Assembly: GCA_905235285.1 (NCBI GenBank)
Contig: CAJOLI010000001.1
Location: 58,265 to 122,264, forward strand
From: an uncultured Bacteroidaceae bacterium
GTDB lineage: Bacteria; Bacteroidota; Bacteroidia; Bacteroidales; Bacteroidaceae
Length of the DNA stretch: 64,000 bases
Reading direction: 5' to 3'
Below the pieces are notes generated by a model. That model saw only the letters and a list, made by a program, of their open reading frames with translations, was not told where the DNA came from and searched no databases. Below, in pieces: positions 4,168-59,377 of the stretch. The position numbers were made by a program, and so were the translations under genes. Each line of letters begins with the position of its first letter. Position 1 is the first letter of the stretch.

Positions 4168-4716
4168 ATGACTAAGAAATTCGTTTGCACCGTATGTGGA
4201 TATATCCACGAAGGTCCTGAGCCCCCCGAACGCTGCCCTCAGTGTAAAGTTCCAGGAAGCAAGTTCAAAGAGCTGAAAGAGGATGGCAACCTTGAGTTTG
4301 TAACTGAGCACGTCATTGGTGTTGCAAAAGGCGTAGATCCTGAAATCCTTGCCGGTCTTCGTTCTAACTTCGAAGGCGAATGCAGTGAGGTTGGAATGTA
4401 TCTGGCCATGGCACGTCAAGCCGACCGCGAAGGATATCCCGAAATCGCTGAAGCGTTCCGTCGCTATGCTTTCGAAGAAGCTGACCATGCTAGCCGCTTT
4501 GCCGAACTGCTGGGCGAATGTGTCTGGGACACCAAAACCAACTTGAAGAAGCGCATGGAAGCTGAGGCTGGCGCATGTGCAGGCAAGATGGATATCGCCA
4601 AGAAAGCTAAGGCTCTGGACCTTGATGCCATACACGACACCGTTCATGAGATGGCTAAGGACGAAGCGCGTCACGGAAAGGGCTTCGAAGGGCTCTACAA
4701 ACGTTACTTCGGATAG
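4168..4716 (+). CDS. Reverse rubrerythrin (rubredoxin-ferritin-like peroxidase)
   Basis: A non-heme diiron protein that reduces hydrogen peroxide in the cytoplasm, often annotated NADH peroxidase. The rubredoxin-type iron site is at the N-terminus (C7-x2-C10 ... C23-x2-C26) and the four-helix ferritin-like diiron domain follows, with [25 protein letters not shown] and [12 protein letters not shown]. This order is reversed relative to classical rubrerythrin. I chose the ATG at 4168 (MTKKFVC) because the longer ORF adds 11 residues of no domain character. A mutarotase-like gene follows 9 bases later, so the two are probably co-transcribed. The rubredoxin module has the same cysteine spacing as the N-terminus of nqrC in this window. 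Confidence 0.92.
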
Positions 4717-52425: not shown

Positions 52426-53715
52426 CTAACCTCCAAAGTTGTCAAAGCGGATCATATCATCTTCGACCCCAAGGCTATGGAGCAGGTCGAGCACGGTCTT
52501 GGCCATCATTGGTGGTCCGCAGAGGTAGTACTCGCAGTCCTCTGGATTCTCGTGAGCCTTAAGGTACGTGTCGCCCATAACAGGTGCAACGAAGCCTGGG
52601 GTATATTTGATGCCAGCTGCGTCGGCCTTAGGATCGGGACGGTCGAGTGCGAGGTGGAAGTGGAAGTTATCGTACTCCTTATCCAGCTGGAGGAAGTCGT
52701 CGAGGAAGGGAACTTCCTCCAAGGCGCGTGCACCATAGAAATAGTGCATGGGGCGCTTACGATCCTCGTCCTTCACGCCGTGGCCCTTGAGCATGTGCAT
52801 AATCTGAGCACGCAGGGGAGCCATGCCAGCACCACCACCGACCCAAATCATCTCGCGACCAGTGCCATACTGAGGACGGAACTCGCCGTAAGGGCCGCTC
52901 ATTACGACCTTGTCGCCGGGTTTCAGCGAGAAGATGTAGCTGGAGGCGATACCAGGATTGACGTCGATGAAGCCGGGACCTTGATCTTTCGGTTTGAAAG
53001 GCGGTGTGGCAATACGTACGTTGAGGGTGATAATGTCGCCCTCGTCGGGATAGTTGGCCATGGAGTAGGCACGGATGGTGGGTTCGGGGTTCTTACACTT
53101 GAGCGGGAAGAGTCCGAACTTCTCCCATGCGGGCAAATAGGTGTCGCCGATGAGGCTCTTGTCGAAGTCCTTGTCGTAGTCGATGCAGTCGAACGCAGGA
53201 ATCCTGATCTGTGCGTATGAGCCTGGCTCGAAGTCCATGTGCTCGCCTGGAGGCAGTGCGACCTTGTACTCCTTGATGAAAGTGGCGACATTCTTGTTGC
53301 CAATGACTGTGCACTCCCACTCTTTGACACCGAGGACACTCTCGGGAACCTTGATGCCGAGGTCGCCCTTGACCTTGCATTGGCATCCGAGGCGCCAGTG
53401 GTCTTTGATTTCCTTGCGGGTGAAATGGCCTTTCTCGGAATCGAGGATCTCGCCTCCACCGTCCGTGACCTGGCATTTGCACTGGCCACAAGAGCCTTTA
53501 CCGCCACAGGCTGAGGGCAGGTAGACGCCTTGTTCGGCAAGCGTGGAGAGAAGGCTAGCACCCTGAGGCACGGACAGCTGGTCCTTGCCGTTCATTGTTA
53601 TGGTGACATTACCACTCGGTGAGAGGTAAGCCTTTGCTACAAGCAGAATGATGACCAACGCGATAATAATCACGAGGAAAACCACAATGCTTGTCAGAAT
53701 TAATGCTGTATTCAT
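52426..53715 (-). CDS. nqrF: Na+-translocating NADH:quinone reductase subunit F
   Basis: The electron entry subunit: takes electrons from NADH through FAD to a [2Fe-2S] centre. The 429-residue protein has one N-terminal membrane helix and a ferredoxin domain with cysteines in SACGGKGSCGQCKC and LGCQCK. It also has an FAD domain (RAYSMANYPDEGD), an NADH-binding domain (WVGGGAGMAPLRAQIMH) and YYLCGPPMMAK. It is the last gene of the operon, 18 bases after nqrE. Confidence 0.96.
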   Translation of the reverse strand: MNTALILTSIVVFLVIIIALVIILLVAKAYLSPSGNVTITMNGKDQLSVPQGASLLSTLAEQGVYLPSACGGKGSCGQCKCQVTDGGGEILDSEKGHFTRKEIKDHWRLGCQCKVKGDLGIKVPESVLGVKEWECTVIGNKNVATFIKEYKVALPPGEHMDFEPGSYAQIRIPAFDCIDYDKDFDKSLIGDTYLPAWEKFGLFPLKCKNPEPTIRAYSMANYPDEGDIITLNVRIATPPFKPKDQGPGFIDVNPGIASSYIFSLKPGDKVVMSGPYGEFRPQYGTGREMIWVGGGAGMAPLRAQIMHMLKGHGVKDEDRKRPMHYFYGARALEEVPFLDDFLQLDKEYDNFHFHLALDRPDPKADAAGIKYTPGFVAPVMGDTYLKAHENPEDCEYYLCGPPMMAKTVLDLLHSLGVEDDMIRFDNFGG

Positions 53716-53733: not shown

Positions 53734-54360
53734 TTAAAGGTTAAGACCAGAGAAGCACATGAATGCCATAGCCATGAGACCAACGGTGATGAACGTGATG
53801 CCGAGTCCCTGAAGTGGGCGTGGCACGTTGGTGTAAGCCATCTTCTCGCGAATGGCAGCGAGGCATGTGATGGCCAACAGCCAACCGATACCTGAGCCAA
53901 GGGCATATGCTATGCTGTCCCAAATGCTCAGAATAGCTTGCGAGTTGGTGTCGGGCATGGTGACGCGCTGCTGCATGAACAGCGAGGCGCCCATGATGGC
54001 GCAGTTCACGGCTATAAGTGGCAGGAAGATGCCGAGTGCGTTATACAGCGAAGGGCTGAAACGCTCGACAATCATCTCTACGAGCTGTACGATGGCAGCG
54101 ATAACGGCGATGAAGAGGATGAACGAGAGGAAGCTCAGGTCCACACCCTCAACGAGGCAGTCGGGGCCAAGGACGTACTGCTGCAAGAGGTAGTCCACGG
54201 GCACGGTGATGAGCAACACGAAGGTCACTGCCACGCCGAGACCGAGGGCCGTCTTCACGCTCTTCGAGACGGCGAGATACGAGCACATGCCGAGGAAGAA
54301 GGCGAAGATCATATTGTCCACAAAGATGGAGCGGACAAATAGACTGATTAGATGTTCCAT
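53734..54360 (-). CDS. nqrE: Na+-NQR subunit E
   Basis: Integral membrane subunit that pairs with NqrD in an inverted-topology module and carries the intramembrane iron site in known NQR structures. The 208 residues have six hydrophobic segments, with the family blocks [20 protein letters not shown] and [15 protein letters not shown]. The cysteine in each block corresponds in position to the metal ligands. It is preceded by a 162-base spacer with inverted repeats that separates it from nqrD. Confidence 0.95.
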
Positions 54361-54522: not shown

Positions 54523-55149
54523 TTACTGAAGTTCTTTATTATACGCACGATGTGCCCAGATGACGCAGCCGACGATGATGAGCGACATGGCGGGCATGGT
54601 CATCATACCGTTGTTGACATAACCGTGGTCGTAGCACCACTGAGGAACGACTTGCAGTCCGAAGAGTGTGCCGGAGCCGAGCAGTTCGCGGAAGAATGCT
54701 ACGATGACAAGGATGATGGCATAACCGATGCCGTTGCCTATGCCGTCGAGGAACGAAGGCCAGGGTTTGTTCATCATGGCAAAAGCCTCGAGTCGTCCCA
54801 TGAGGATACAGTTGGTGATAATCAAGCCAACGTAAACCGAGAGCTGCACGCTGACGTCGTAGGCGAAGGCCTTGAGCACCTGACTTACGATGGTCACCAG
54901 GGCAGCCACCACGACCAGCTGAACAATGATGCGGATTCGGTTGGGGATGGACTTGCGGATGAGCGAGATAATCAAGTTTGAGAAGGCGGTGATGATGGTC
55001 ACGCTAAGACCCATCACTATTGCTGGCTCAAGCTGAGCGGTGACGGCCAGTGCGGAGCAGATGCCGAGGACCTGTACTACGATAGGGTTGTTCAGGTTGA
55101 GCGGGTTAGTCAGCGCCTCCATATTTGCTTTGGAAAATAATTGACTCAT
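54523..55149 (-). CDS. nqrD: Na+-NQR subunit D
   Basis: Membrane subunit forming a pseudo-symmetric pair with NqrE. The 208-residue protein shows NPIVVQVLGICSALAVTAQLEP and VGLIITNCILMGRLEAFAM, each with a cysteine at the metal-ligand position, and six membrane segments. It is separated from the nqrC stop by a 32-base spacer containing TTGTAAAT / ATTTACAA. Confidence 0.95.
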   Translation of the reverse strand: MSQLFSKANMEALTNPLNLNNPIVVQVLGICSALAVTAQLEPAIVMGLSVTIITAFSNLIISLIRKSIPNRIRIIVQLVVVAALVTIVSQVLKAFAYDVSVQLSVYVGLIITNCILMGRLEAFAMMNKPWPSFLDGIGNGIGYAIILVIVAFFRELLGSGTLFGLQVVPQWCYDHGYVNNGMMTMPAMSLIIVGCVIWAHRAYNKELQ

Positions 55150-55181: not shown

Positions 55182-55565
55182 TTACTTTTTTTTAGTTGTG
55201 CCGCAGCATTCTTTGTCACCCTTGCAGCCAGGCTTGCCGCATGAACCGCTCTTGTCACAGACGCCGCTCTTGCAGCAGTCGTTGCCGCTCTGACACTTGT
55301 GACCGGCAGCCTTCTTCGGGCAACCGCCGCAGCCGTCAGCCTTGGGGCAGCCATTGGCCTTGGGGCAGCCGTCAGCCTTAGCACAGGGGGCTACCTTCTC
55401 ACAAGCAGCGCAAGGGCATTCCTCACGGGCGCAGCATTTGGCATCGCTGGCGCAGTTGCAGGCGGGGTCGCCGCAGCTGCCGTCCTTGCAGGCACACTGC
55501 TTCTTCTCGGCGCAAGTGCAGTCGGGCTTGTCGCAGCACTTCTCTGCCTTGTGGCAGCAGTTGCC
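55182..55565 (-). other. Cysteine-rich metallothionein-like tail of NqrC
   Basis: 127 codons in the same frame as the FMN-binding half of NqrC, with no stop between them. Twenty-nine cysteines occur in CC, CxC and CxxC-like pairs (for example CTCAEKKQCAC and CCAREECPCAAC), with a hexapeptide-like repeat ADGCPK/ANGCPK/ADGCGGCPK and a lysine-rich end. By NqrC topology it should lie in the periplasm. No metallothionein family was matched. Confidence 0.85.
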
Positions 55566-56364
55566 GGCGGGTTTGGCACCGCCGAGGGCGTTGACATACT
55601 GCTGAATGCCCGTGAGCACCATCTCGCCAACACCTTTAGAGGTCAGCGTAGCACCGGTGACACCGTCGACCTGAGTCTCGCCTTCACTGGAACCCTTCTT
55701 GACAACGGTCAGAGCGACGTTGCCATCAGGCCCCATGACGGGACGACCAATGAACTTGGAACTTAGCTTCCTTGATGAGAGCACCCAGACCAGCGGTCTC
55801 GCTCTCATGGTCGAAGTAAGCACCGAGCACGCTCTGCAAGTCAGGCGTAACGGCCACATAGCCCCAAAGGCCACCCCATAGGCCACGGCCCTTGAGGGGG
55901 AGCACGAGAGCTTCAGCGCCGTCGGCAGTCTTTGCCTTGTATACGGGGAACTTGTCGCCAATCTCCTTGGTCTGGACGTCGAAGGCGTTAGCGCCATCAA
56001 TGACCTGACCGTCGGGAGTCAGCACACAAGTCTCTTGAATCAATTCGTCAAACTTGCCTTCGACCTCGCTCTTAGCCAGGCCGCGAACATTCAAGGAGGC
56101 AAGTATCTGGGATTTCTTATCAATAGCTACGTTAGCATCCTGAGCAGGCTTGAGAGCGCTGCTGACGAAGGCCAGCAGGAAGGCCACGAGCACCACCAAG
56201 ACTGCGGCATAGCAGATGGTGTAAACATTGCTGTTGGTGTTTATGCCCTTAGGCTTTTCCTCCTTGATGTGGGAGGTGTCAGCGCCGCAGATAGGGCACT
56301 TGTCGGGCATTGATGCGGCTTCAAACGTTTGGCCGCATTGGCTGCATAAAAATTTCTTTGCCAT
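55182..56364 (-). pseudogene. nqrC: nqrC with extra cysteine modules, interrupted by a one-base frameshift
   Basis: NqrC is the periplasmic FMN subunit of Na+-NQR. The first frame (56364 down to 55726) encodes a four-cysteine rubredoxin-like module (C7, C10, C23, C26), a membrane helix (VYTICYAAVLVVLVAFLLAF) and the NqrC domain up to LGALIKEAKF. The second frame resumes at SSKFIGRPVMGPDGN and carries the covalent-FMN motif DGVTGATLTS, then a 127-residue tail with 29 cysteines. The shift lies at the direct repeat GAACTT-G-GAACTT (55752-55764, plus strand) and equals one extra base. Homologues begin near INTNSNVYTI, so the first 42 residues are an addition. It could be a sequencing error, true disruption or recoding. 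Confidence 0.85.
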
Positions 56365-56369
56365 ATCTG

Positions 56370-57551
56370 TTACTGTTTAATTGCGCGTTTTGCACGTTTT
56401 GAAATGTTGCGGCTGACGAAGCAGTAGTCGATGAGGGGAGCTGCCAGGTTCATGAGCAGGATAGCGAGCATCATACCTTCGGGGTAACCGGGGTTGAGCA
56501 CGCGTACAGTCACGGCCACGAATCCAATCAGCAAACCGTAAATCCATTTACCACCTTCAGTACGAGCGCTGGTGACAGGATCAGTAGCCATAAACACGGC
56601 GCCAAAGCAGAAGCCGCCGAGCACGAGGTGCTGATACCAGGGGATGTGAGCTCCGATGTTTCCAGGATCAAGGGTGGCATCGTAAAGCATTGCTGTAAGG
56701 GCACCACCCACAAAGACGCTTAGCATGGTCTTCCACGAAGCCACACCTGTGCAGAGCAGCAGGCAAGCACCGATGGCGATGGCGATGACACTGGTCTCAC
56801 CGATGGAACCAGGGATGAGACCACATATCTGATTGCAGAGGCTCGATGTTAAGGCCGAGCCGGCAGCCAGCTCACCAAGAGGTGTAGCAGCAGAGAACGT
56901 GTCGGGCACATTGAAGCCAAGGCCGCAGATGGTGTTCTGAGCCACCCATACGGTGTCGTCACCTGTCATGCTGGAAGGATAGGAGAAAAATAGGAACGCG
57001 CGCGTAATAAGCGCTACGTTGAAGATGTTCATGCCGGTGCCACCGAAGATTTCCTTGGCGAAGATGACGGCGAAGGCGGTAGCTATGGCGAGCATCCACA
57101 GCGGCGTGTTCACAGGCACAATCATCGGGATGATGATGCCCGAGACGAGGAATCCTTCGTGAATCTCCTCGTTCTTCCATTGAGCTACGGTGAACTCTAT
57201 GCCGAGGCCTACGATGTAACTGACGATGATCTTAGGCAGCACAGCGAGGAAGCCGTACCAGAACATCCCCCAGAAAGTAGCCTGCTCGAGTTGTCCGGCA
57301 GCGAGCGCGTTCTGGTAACCGACGTTGTACATTCCGAAGAGCAACGCAGGCACCAGGGCGATGACAACGAGCGACATGATACGCTTGCTGTCGATGGCAT
57401 CGTGCACGTGAGTGCCGGCGCGTCCTGCCGTCGTGTTGGGCACGAAGGCGAACGTATCGAAGCCATCATAAAGCGAACGGAAGGCGTGGAGCTTGCCACC
57501 CTCTTCGAAGTTCGGCTTTATCTTGTCGAAAAATTTTCTTAGACTATTCAT
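56370..57551 (-). CDS. nqrB: Na+-NQR subunit B
   Basis: Membrane subunit carrying a covalent FMN and riboflavin and the sodium path. The 393-residue protein has about ten membrane helices. The FMN-attachment threonine motif is DTFSAATPLGEL (S-[GA]-A-T form), and family blocks are GGTGMNIFNVALITRAFLFF and FMATDPVTSARTEGGKWIYG. The nqrC start follows after 5 bases. The upstream gap to nqrA is unusually long at 497 bases and contains a decayed gene. Confidence 0.96.
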   Translation of the reverse strand: MNSLRKFFDKIKPNFEEGGKLHAFRSLYDGFDTFAFVPNTTAGRAGTHVHDAIDSKRIMSLVVIALVPALLFGMYNVGYQNALAAGQLEQATFWGMFWYGFLAVLPKIIVSYIVGLGIEFTVAQWKNEEIHEGFLVSGIIIPMIVPVNTPLWMLAIATAFAVIFAKEIFGGTGMNIFNVALITRAFLFFSYPSSMTGDDTVWVAQNTICGLGFNVPDTFSAATPLGELAAGSALTSSLCNQICGLIPGSIGETSVIAIAIGACLLLCTGVASWKTMLSVFVGGALTAMLYDATLDPGNIGAHIPWYQHLVLGGFCFGAVFMATDPVTSARTEGGKWIYGLLIGFVAVTVRVLNPGYPEGMMLAILLMNLAAPLIDYCFVSRNISKRAKRAIKQ

Positions 57552-58048
57552 CTTATCATTTACAATTTAAAAATTTACCATTTACCATTTGATACCATTT
57601 ACATCTTAATGATTGACCATTTACTATTTCGTATCATGAAAATGCCTGAGCTATTGATCTATCTTGCGACGAATAGCAGTTATCGTGCTAACAGTGATTC
57701 TCAACAACTCCTGACACTCATTATACAATGCTTCCACTCAACTTGGTTTGACCATCTCTGTTACCATGATAATTTCCAACCAATGAGTGTTTCGCCTAAT
57801 TCCTCTTCAACCATCTTCAGCTTGTTCAGGAAATCTTTATCAGACTTTGCAAGAAGAGCTGCCCTGTAATTGGCAGATGGTGACGTACCAGAACGTACAA
57901 TTTGCCTTGCTATGGCATCAGAGGAAATCTTCCGGGGCATTGAATCTACCATTTTAATTATACGGACGGCCATTTCCTTAAACCTTATTTTAAGTTCGTT
58001 GCTATCCATAACATCCAAATGGTAAATAGTAAATGGCTAAATGGTAAA
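57552..58048 (-). other. nqrA-nqrB spacer, flanked by inverted AT-rich repeats
   Basis: Besides the decayed four-helix gene, the spacer begins after the nqrA stop with TAATTTACCATTTAGCC (minus strand). It ends before nqrB with AAATAGTAAATGG and AAATGGTAAATGG words, the inverse type. The ends can pair and bracket the insertion. Confidence 0.65.
57651..58018 (-). pseudogene. Decayed four-helix-bundle (S23/IVP-type) gene inside the nqr operon
   Basis: The open part (58018 to 57761) encodes MAVRIIKMVDSMPRK, ARQIVRSGTSPSANYRAALLAKS and KMVEEELGETLI. This is the hallmark of the four-helix-bundle proteins related to 23S-rRNA intervening-sequence ORFs. Family members are about 120 residues. After ETLI the expected WLEIIMVTEMVKPS continues only in another frame (one base lost near 57780-57785). 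A TGA (57738-57740) then precedes VEALYNECQELLRITV and the natural end at 57651. Two lesions make it a pseudogene. It occupies the nqrA-nqrB gap. Confidence 0.8.
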
Positions 58049-59377
58049 TTAGAGGTTCTCTTTGCGCAGGATATCCAATCCCTCGCGCACGATACGTTGC
58101 AATTCTAGTTTTGAACTGTCTACAAACTCAGCGATGGCGAAGTCCTCAGGAGCCACCTCGTAGATGCCGAGGGCTTCCTGGCGGTCGATGTCACCTGCGA
58201 TGATGGCCTTGACGAGGTAGCCGGCATAGATGTCCATAGGGAACACGCGGTCGTATTCACCCGACATGATGATGTGACGCTCGCCGCCTTTGACACGGGC
58301 ATCCAGGGTGTACTCGGTCTTCTTGGGGCGCAGCCAGCTGAAATAGCTGCGGTTGGTGCTGAACTCCTTGAAGCGGGGTGCAATCCAGCCCAGCATCTCA
58401 AAGACGTCGTCGCCCTCGGGGATAACGGTGACTTCCGTGGCATGAGCGGCCAGGAAACCATCCTTCGAAGCCTTCACGCCCACCATTGGGTTACCGTTGA
58501 TGATGCGCAGGCTCTTCTGCTCATCGAGCTGTCCGGCCAAAATGGCTGCGAGTGGTTGTCCCACGACAGCCTTGATGTACTTAGGCACTTTCACCTCGGA
58601 GCCGGCAACGGCGATGGTGCGTGTAAGGTCGACCTTGCCTGTGAGAGCCAGACGGCCTACAAAAATAACCTCTTCGGCGCCCATTGTCCAGACGACTTCG
58701 CCCTTGTTGATGGGGTCGATGTGGTTAATCTGAACGCCCACGTTGCCTGCGGGTGCGGGGCCGTCGAAGATAGTGACGGTGCAGTCCTTGGCAGCCGTCA
58801 GAGCCTTTGCCGTCTGCTTGTTGCTGACGCCGAGGTTGACCTTGGCAATCTTGCTCAGTAGCGAGAGGCCAGCCTGAAACTCCGCCTCCTGTCCCTTCAG
58901 GACGTACTCAAAGTCCTGAGCCAACGGCATGCTGTTGAATGCGCTGACGAAGATGGCCTTAGGCTTGTCATCGGGGTTAGCCACGACATCGTAAGGGCGC
59001 ATGCGCAGGAATCCAAAGAGGCCGCTCTCCAGCAGCAACTTCAGCGGGTCTTTCTCCGCGAAGGTGGCAGCTGTCTGCTTGCCATCGGCATCAACGCGAA
59101 CGCTCATTACCTTGCGGCGTTCACCACGCTCGACGAGCGCCACGGTGCCGCTGACAGGCGAAACGAACTTCACTTCGGGATGGTTCTTGTCAACAAACAA
59201 GGCATCCCCGACCTTGACAGTATCTCCCTCCTTGACGACGACCTTGGGCTTCATGCCGTAGAAATCATCGGGGACCAGCGCATACTGACCCTCGACTTTC
59301 GTTTGCATGGTTTCCAAGCTCGCCTTGCCCTTCAGGTTTACGTCGAGGCCTTTGCGTAACTTGATTACATTTGCCAT
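58049..59377 (-). CDS. nqrA: Na+-NQR subunit A
   Basis: Cytoplasmic-side subunit that contacts the quinone region. The 442-residue protein lacks membrane helices and shows VIKLRKGLDVNLKGKA at the N-terminus, DALFVDKNHPEVKFVSPVSG (biotinyl-lipoyl-like), INHIDPINKGEVVWTMGAEE and the C-terminal SGEYDRVFPMDIYAGYL. It is the first gene of the operon, with a TAATTTTG box about 43 bases upstream. The start is supported by the conserved N-terminus. Confidence 0.96.
   Translation of the reverse strand: MANVIKLRKGLDVNLKGKASLETMQTKVEGQYALVPDDFYGMKPKVVVKEGDTVKVGDALFVDKNHPEVKFVSPVSGTVALVERGERRKVMSVRVDADGKQTAATFAEKDPLKLLLESGLFGFLRMRPYDVVANPDDKPKAIFVSAFNSMPLAQDFEYVLKGQEAEFQAGLSLLSKIAKVNLGVSNKQTAKALTAAKDCTVTIFDGPAPAGNVGVQINHIDPINKGEVVWTMGAEEVIFVGRLALTGKVDLTRTIAVAGSEVKVPKYIKAVVGQPLAAILAGQLDEQKSLRIINGNPMVGVKASKDGFLAAHATEVTVIPEGDDVFEMLGWIAPRFKEFSTNRSYFSWLRPKKTEYTLDARVKGGERHIIMSGEYDRVFPMDIYAGYLVKAIIAGDIDRQEALGIYEVAPEDFAIAEFVDSSKLELQRIVREGLDILRKENL

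Follow-up and report, generated by a model that had tools for sequence, protein, structure and literature searches.

An NqrC subunit carrying an N-terminal rubredoxin-like domain and a cysteine-rich C-terminal tail in Bacteroidales

The window, i.e., the whole 64,000-nucleotide stretch of DNA analysed here, comes from an uncultured Bacteroidaceae bacterium. Judging from the neighbouring open reading frames (ORFs), it includes a complete nqrA–F set, in which nqrC, encoded on the minus strand, is flanked by nqrB and nqrD. The features of the locus are collected in Table 1. A gene for a four-helix bundle of the 23S rRNA intervening-sequence type (TIGR02436, E 2.9e-14) is found between nqrA and nqrB, at 57761–58018 on the minus strand.

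An earlier, sequence-only reading of this DNA had taken the gene to be nqrC. NCBIfam NqrC models, a match to FMN_bind, and the place of the gene in the nqr operon agree. That reading had also noted two additions to the protein, and the translation bears out both. From the start codon at 56364, the protein begins MAKKFLCSQCGQTFEAASMPDKCPIC, with Cys at residues 7, 10, 23, and 26, positions identical to those in the reverse rubrerythrin encoded from the ATG at 4168. The last 127 codons encode 29 Cys (23%).

Table 1. Coordinates of nqrC, its parts, and related genes in the window.
Feature	Position	Strand	Basis
nqrC with both additions; frameshifted in the assembly	55182..56364	-	ORFs, translation, NCBIfam NqrC models, intact relatives
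N-terminal rubredoxin-like domain and linker start, codons 1-40	56245..56364	-	Pfam PF21349, residues 7-32, E 2e-8; fold of a relative's domain
Predicted single membrane helix, about residues 50-71	56152..56217	-	Hydrophobic stretch in translation; relative's model
Frameshift site, 5 bases fewer than relatives	55755..55758	-	DNA comparison, 14 relatives
FMN domain, second part, shifted frame	55566..55754	-	FMN_bind match, second piece
GAT-motif threonine for FMN attachment	55647-55649	-	Inferred from known motif
Cys-rich periplasmic tail, 127 codons with 29 Cys	55185..55565	-	Translation, relatives
Conserved tail block A	55374..55547	-	Alignment, median dN/dS 0.15
Conserved tail block B	55200..55301	-	Alignment, median dN/dS 0.06
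Stop codon of the nqrC tail frame	55182-55184	-	
nqrA	58049..59377	-	ORF, assigned by reading
nqrB	56370..57551	-	ORF, assigned by reading
nqrD	54523..55149	-	ORF, assigned by reading
nqrE	53734..54360	-	ORF, assigned by reading
nqrF	52426..53715	-	ORF, assigned by reading
Reverse rubrerythrin, candidate partner	4168..4716	+	ORF; Pfam Rubrerythrin and RUBY_RBDX

No single reading frame extends from 56364 to 55182. The frame that opens at 56364 runs for 212 codons, to a stop at 55726, and the rest of the FMN domain and the Cys tail are encoded in another frame. FMN_bind matches both pieces, as it matches all 55 aligned members, and the GAT motif of NqrC is found in the shifted frame. The tail had been described as in frame with the FMN half of the protein, which is true of the second part of the FMN domain but not of the first. 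At about 55758–55755, the window is 5 bases shorter than every one of the 14 relatives compared. The tail-bearing relatives recovered by whole-genome searches have a single intact ORF of about 300–458 aa, with no frameshift. Programmed frameshifting is ruled out because the shorter site is unique to the window and the relatives' frames are uninterrupted. The frameshift in the window reflects a recent mutation or else an error in sequencing or assembly, and since the additions are seen in intact relatives, their reality stands in either case.

Two explanations that would make the additions meaningless can be weighed against these relatives. That assembly chimerism created the domain or the tail might be suspected, as the window derives from a fragmented draft genome of 153 contigs, and as those tail-bearing genomes with titles are metagenome-assembled or from uncultured organisms. 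Against this, about 28 genomes bear the tail, in goat, sheep, deer, buffalo, and further sets produced with different assemblers, and a named isolate and a genome assembled as a single contig both have the domain. Chimerism, the artefact of which the sequence-only reading had warned, can be dismissed, since many independent assemblies contain intact homologues, and we assign it a vanishingly small probability. The same relatives identify the tail as a true C-terminal extension of NqrC. The other explanation is that nqrC is truly broken in the window organism and that both additions are functionless in this strain, for the frame is interrupted ahead of the FMN-attachment threonine. We find this unlikely, though worth keeping in mind: beyond the shift the gene is free of stops over 190 codons, the dN/dS of the tail is still low, the remaining nqr genes are full-length, and every tail-bearing relative is intact. 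The break is either very recent or an assembly error. Recurrence of domain and tail in many independent assemblies with low dN/dS is not a matter of chance. The protein is a genuine, lineage-specific form of NqrC.

The N-terminal module was called rubredoxin-like from its Cys pattern, an assignment now upheld by Pfam and by predicted structure. The window's domain matches RUBY_RBDX (PF21349) at 34 bits, over the cut-off of 26.5, and the domain of Segatella paludivivens NqrC does so at 54.4 bits; weaker zinc-ribbon matches accompany the rubredoxin match. The four Cys, arranged as two CxxC pairs, are invariant in all 25 domain sequences. AlphaFold2, supplied with alignments from the fetched loci, predicts with confidence a small beta fold for the domain of a close relative (pLDDT about 90), and a long helix spans 46–90 in the model of a close relative's NqrC. 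Among solved structures, Foldseek places the domain nearest to rubredoxins and to the rubredoxin domain of rubrerythrin (probability 1.00; E only ~0.01, because the domain is so short), and its best sequence relatives in the PDB are likewise rubrerythrin and rubredoxin. In other genera, the domain is about 60% identical to the rubredoxin domain of the window's own rubrerythrin and keeps the core aromatics (CGY...F). These are replaced in the window's genus, where the core reads CGQTFEA..MPDKCPICGAD and the rubredoxin Tyr and Phe are missing. Their loss makes zinc possible there in place of iron; that is, the domain in this genus could have become a zinc site. The median dN/dS is 0.06 for the domain and 0.08 for the NqrC core. 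In one close relative with the Cys tail (L034), the domain went unreported in a full-length Pfam scan and scored 37.7 bits when the first 60 residues were scanned alone, an omission probably due to the HMMER composition filter. Annotation pipelines may thus miss such domains.

How widespread is the domain? In a sample of 251 genomes from the window's family, the profile match reaches into the domain in about 68 of the ~150 best matches listed, and the domain occurs in about 11 genera among those matches, both figures being counts by hand. It is also found in three other Bacteroidales families (f19, f105, and f42). In a phylum-wide sample of 198 genomes, the window's NqrC is the only one among the matches listed whose alignment reaches the domain, and no NqrC from beyond the order was seen to have it. 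Carriers with names include the cultured isolate Segatella paludivivens DSM 17968 and genomes of Paraprevotella. An N-terminal rubredoxin-like domain, which the sequence-only reading had proposed looking for in Bacteroidales NqrC homologues, is thus widespread in the order and not peculiar to the window organism. One species (G421; loci L173 and L222) has an NqrC with three tandem rubredoxin-like domains. These copies differ from each other at 14, 34, and 37 of 108 bases, so that they are not an assembly duplicate.

The domain is an optional part of NqrC and is repeatedly absent. On a tree of 145 NqrC cores, its presence changes at least 28 times, a rough count, as the tree is a quick one with many weak forks. 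Being lost so often, the domain is not essential. Within the window's genus (groups tail, B, C, and D), the cores share 55–67% DNA identity and the domains 87–95%. In six comparisons within the genus, silent-site divergence is 0.19–0.41 over the first 30 codons and, in all six, 0.55–0.81 over all other scorable 30-codon segments. The 5′ ends of domain-less nqrC genes display no comparable drop in silent-site divergence, save for a mild one in a single comparison. Recombination of the nqrC 5′ end between species is the simplest reading: the domain appears to have been exchanged between species as a cassette. The main alternative is a special synonymous constraint on the domain, but in more distant pairs the silent sites of the domain are as diverged as those of the remainder of nqrC. 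For a respiratory gene, such apparent swapping of one small 5′ domain between species is unusual in its own right. The leader just upstream of the ATG differs between domain-bearing and domain-less nqrC genes.

The tail is more narrowly distributed. In 121 genomes of the genus, a tail profile matched strongly 28 times, at E 6.5e-16 or better and always on NqrC. Where the sampled organ is named for tail-bearing genomes, it is the rumen or the omasum. The two conserved blocks flank a variable repeat region. Cys columns are 97–100% conserved versus 75–90% for other columns and, judged by this and by the dN/dS of the blocks (Table 1), the tail is under purifying selection. The residues are patterned as CC, CxC, and CxxC, with ~23% Cys, and the L034 tail has no aromatic residue at all. 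No Pfam match and no PDB sequence relative was found for the tail, and in the AlphaFold2 model of a relative it is disordered, with no confident fold. A search of the window's own genome for a second copy gave a chance-level match only, and a search of phage records gave none.

In sister clades within the genus, NqrC ends in Cys-rich repeats of unrelated sequence; examples are ADCTKECKDGKKC, GQGQC, and CPKEDCPMAG units. Counting as a tail any with five or more Cys, the tail changes state about 10 times on the same rough NqrC tree. The presence of unrelated repeats at the same end indicates that NqrC was loaded with Cys more than once, and suggests that Cys-rich tails arose repeatedly and independently. 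Recurrent Cys tails on one subunit point to a common, hitherto unrecognised requirement for binding metal or thiols at the periplasmic face of NQR. Unrelated Cys-rich NqrC tails were seen at loci L148, L149, L150, L153, L096, and L112, from species mostly of the same genus.

The known NqrCs of Vibrio cholerae, Prevotella bryantii, and Parabacteroides distasonis (3lwx) share with this protein the N-terminal helix, FMN_bind, the GAT motif, and the operon place, and the best structural matches of the NqrC core are known NqrCs, including 3lwx. In contrast, the known proteins have neither a rubredoxin-like domain nor a Cys tail. The NqrC of P. bryantii, with FMN on Thr185, is only 23.2 kDa (PMC8516057), too small for these additions. 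The domain equals the rubredoxin domain of rubrerythrin (PF21349) in Cys spacing, length, and predicted fold. In rubrerythrin, however, it sits on a diiron peroxidase, whereas here it is tethered to a respiratory membrane subunit, with the core aromatics replaced in the window's genus. The ferredoxin-dependent disulfide reductase of Methanosarcina (4tpu), found among both the fold and the sequence matches, also carries a short rubredoxin-like domain on a redox enzyme, but that partner enzyme is soluble and unrelated. The tail resembles metallothioneins in its ~20–25% Cys, its CC, CxC, and CxxC clusters, its near lack of aromatics, and its predicted disorder. It differs in having no sequence match to them (Pfam, PDB), in being fused to a respiratory subunit, and in its expected periplasmic location. 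The sequence-only reading knew of no described NqrC with either addition, and the open-access literature searched likewise held no description of an NqrC with a rubredoxin-like domain or a Cys-rich tail. A co-mention of NqrC and rubredoxin occurs in a paper that, by its title and abstract, concerns the metabolism of Clostridium ultunense. Given how the additions are distributed, the tandem triplet, the cassette pattern, and the recurrence of Cys tails, the case is more general and stranger than it had seemed.

The anatomy of both additions is established; their function is plausible, and we infer it as follows. By known topology, the N-terminus of NqrC is cytoplasmic, and rubredoxins have potentials near 0 V, compared with near −0.27 V for the NqrF cluster, so that electron transfer from the latter to the former would be downhill. 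In NQR, electrons move from NADH to the FAD and 2Fe-2S center of NqrF in the cytoplasm, to the 2Fe-2S center between NqrD and NqrE, then to the FMN of NqrC in the periplasm, to NqrB, and to quinone; a single membrane helix lies at the N-terminus of NqrC (PMC12174285). The ~35-residue domain, of the rubrerythrin type, is carried by this cytoplasmic end on a flexible linker and, we suggest, most likely holds one iron through its four Cys. Sharing its side of the membrane with the mobile NqrF cluster, it would accept single electrons from the NADH-oxidising side of NQR and donate them to rubrerythrin, rubredoxin, or similar soluble acceptors. The sodium pump would thereby be bypassed when oxygen or peroxide needs reducing. 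The tail would be a disordered stretch that most likely binds soft metal ions, or stores thiols, beside the flavin domain. This pair of putative roles, the domain as a one-electron relay on a tether and the tail as a binder of metal or thiols in the manner of metallothionein, is given somewhat less than even credence. NQR is inhibited through thiols by Ag+ (IC50 20 nM) and Zn2+ (IC50 1 uM) (PMC12682751), and such poisoning offers a possible reason for the tail. As a counterpoint, the known metal-sensitive Cys residues are in cytoplasmic NqrF, on the opposite side of the membrane from the tail.

Each half of this proposal has a competitor. The domain may instead play a structural part, as a zinc ribbon by which NqrC docks to a partner, e.g., NqrF, NqrA, or fumarate reductase, with no electron transfer. 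The missing Tyr and Phe in the window's genus and the zinc-ribbon matches fit such a role, as does the supercomplex of NQR and fumarate reductase in P. bryantii (PMC8516057). Outside the window's genus, however, the sequence is that of a canonical rubrerythrin-type rubredoxin, the closest solved structures are rubrerythrin and rubredoxin, and the three tandem copies of G421 are more easily explained by electron transfer than by a docking site; we regard docking as a minority possibility. Nor need the tail bind metal. It might store redox equivalents or disulfides, or else serve for cross-linking or anchoring, roles that suit its position adjoining the periplasmic flavin domain and the many unrelated Cys-rich repeats that serve equally, as if Cys number outweighed the exact site. 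On the other hand, blocks A and B are conserved in detail, and clusters of CC and CxC are typical of metal thiolates. A non-metal role thus seems to us rather doubtful.

The two additions, the domain in many gut and rumen Bacteroidales and the tail in one rumen genus, suggest a pump that is wired to oxygen-defence proteins and binds metal, both functions being putative. Carried further, this reading would describe a branched NQR in many Bacteroidales, one that pumps sodium while passing electrons to menaquinone, feeds cytoplasmic oxygen and peroxide reductases through an exchangeable tethered rubredoxin cassette (up to three in tandem), and has on the same subunit a metallothionein-like periplasmic tail that guards or loads metal. 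This fuller picture is speculative, and we would not wager on it as a whole. Its interest is that NQR is a principal sodium pump in the respiration of Prevotella-type bacteria of gut and rumen, and a rubredoxin fused to it would, if the reading is true, be a direct electron source for oxygen defence. The fusion in cultured S. paludivivens DSM 17968 makes the matter experimentally accessible now.

In Bacteroides thetaiotaomicron, the NADH:rubredoxin oxidoreductase was reported not to be the sole source of rubredoxin electrons (PMC5210497), which implies unknown donors in the group; carrying this over to the domain-bearing species is an extrapolation. The Rubredoxin_C-type NADH:rubredoxin reductase (PF18267) was absent from all 65 genomes searched, with or without the fusion, and is thus uninformative on whether the domain replaces that enzyme. 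Free rubredoxin is present in 53 of the 65 genomes. The idea that the fusion substitutes for an absent free rubredoxin found no clear association, the free protein being missing from 8 of 32 fusion-bearing genomes and from 4 of 32 that lack the fusion. Since most genomes have free rubredoxin regardless of the fusion, no clear need for the fused domain emerges. Nearly complete genomes of two families, f19 (G054, G265) and f105 (G325, G141), have the fusion and no free rubredoxin (PF00301), and in these the fused domain may be a main rubredoxin.
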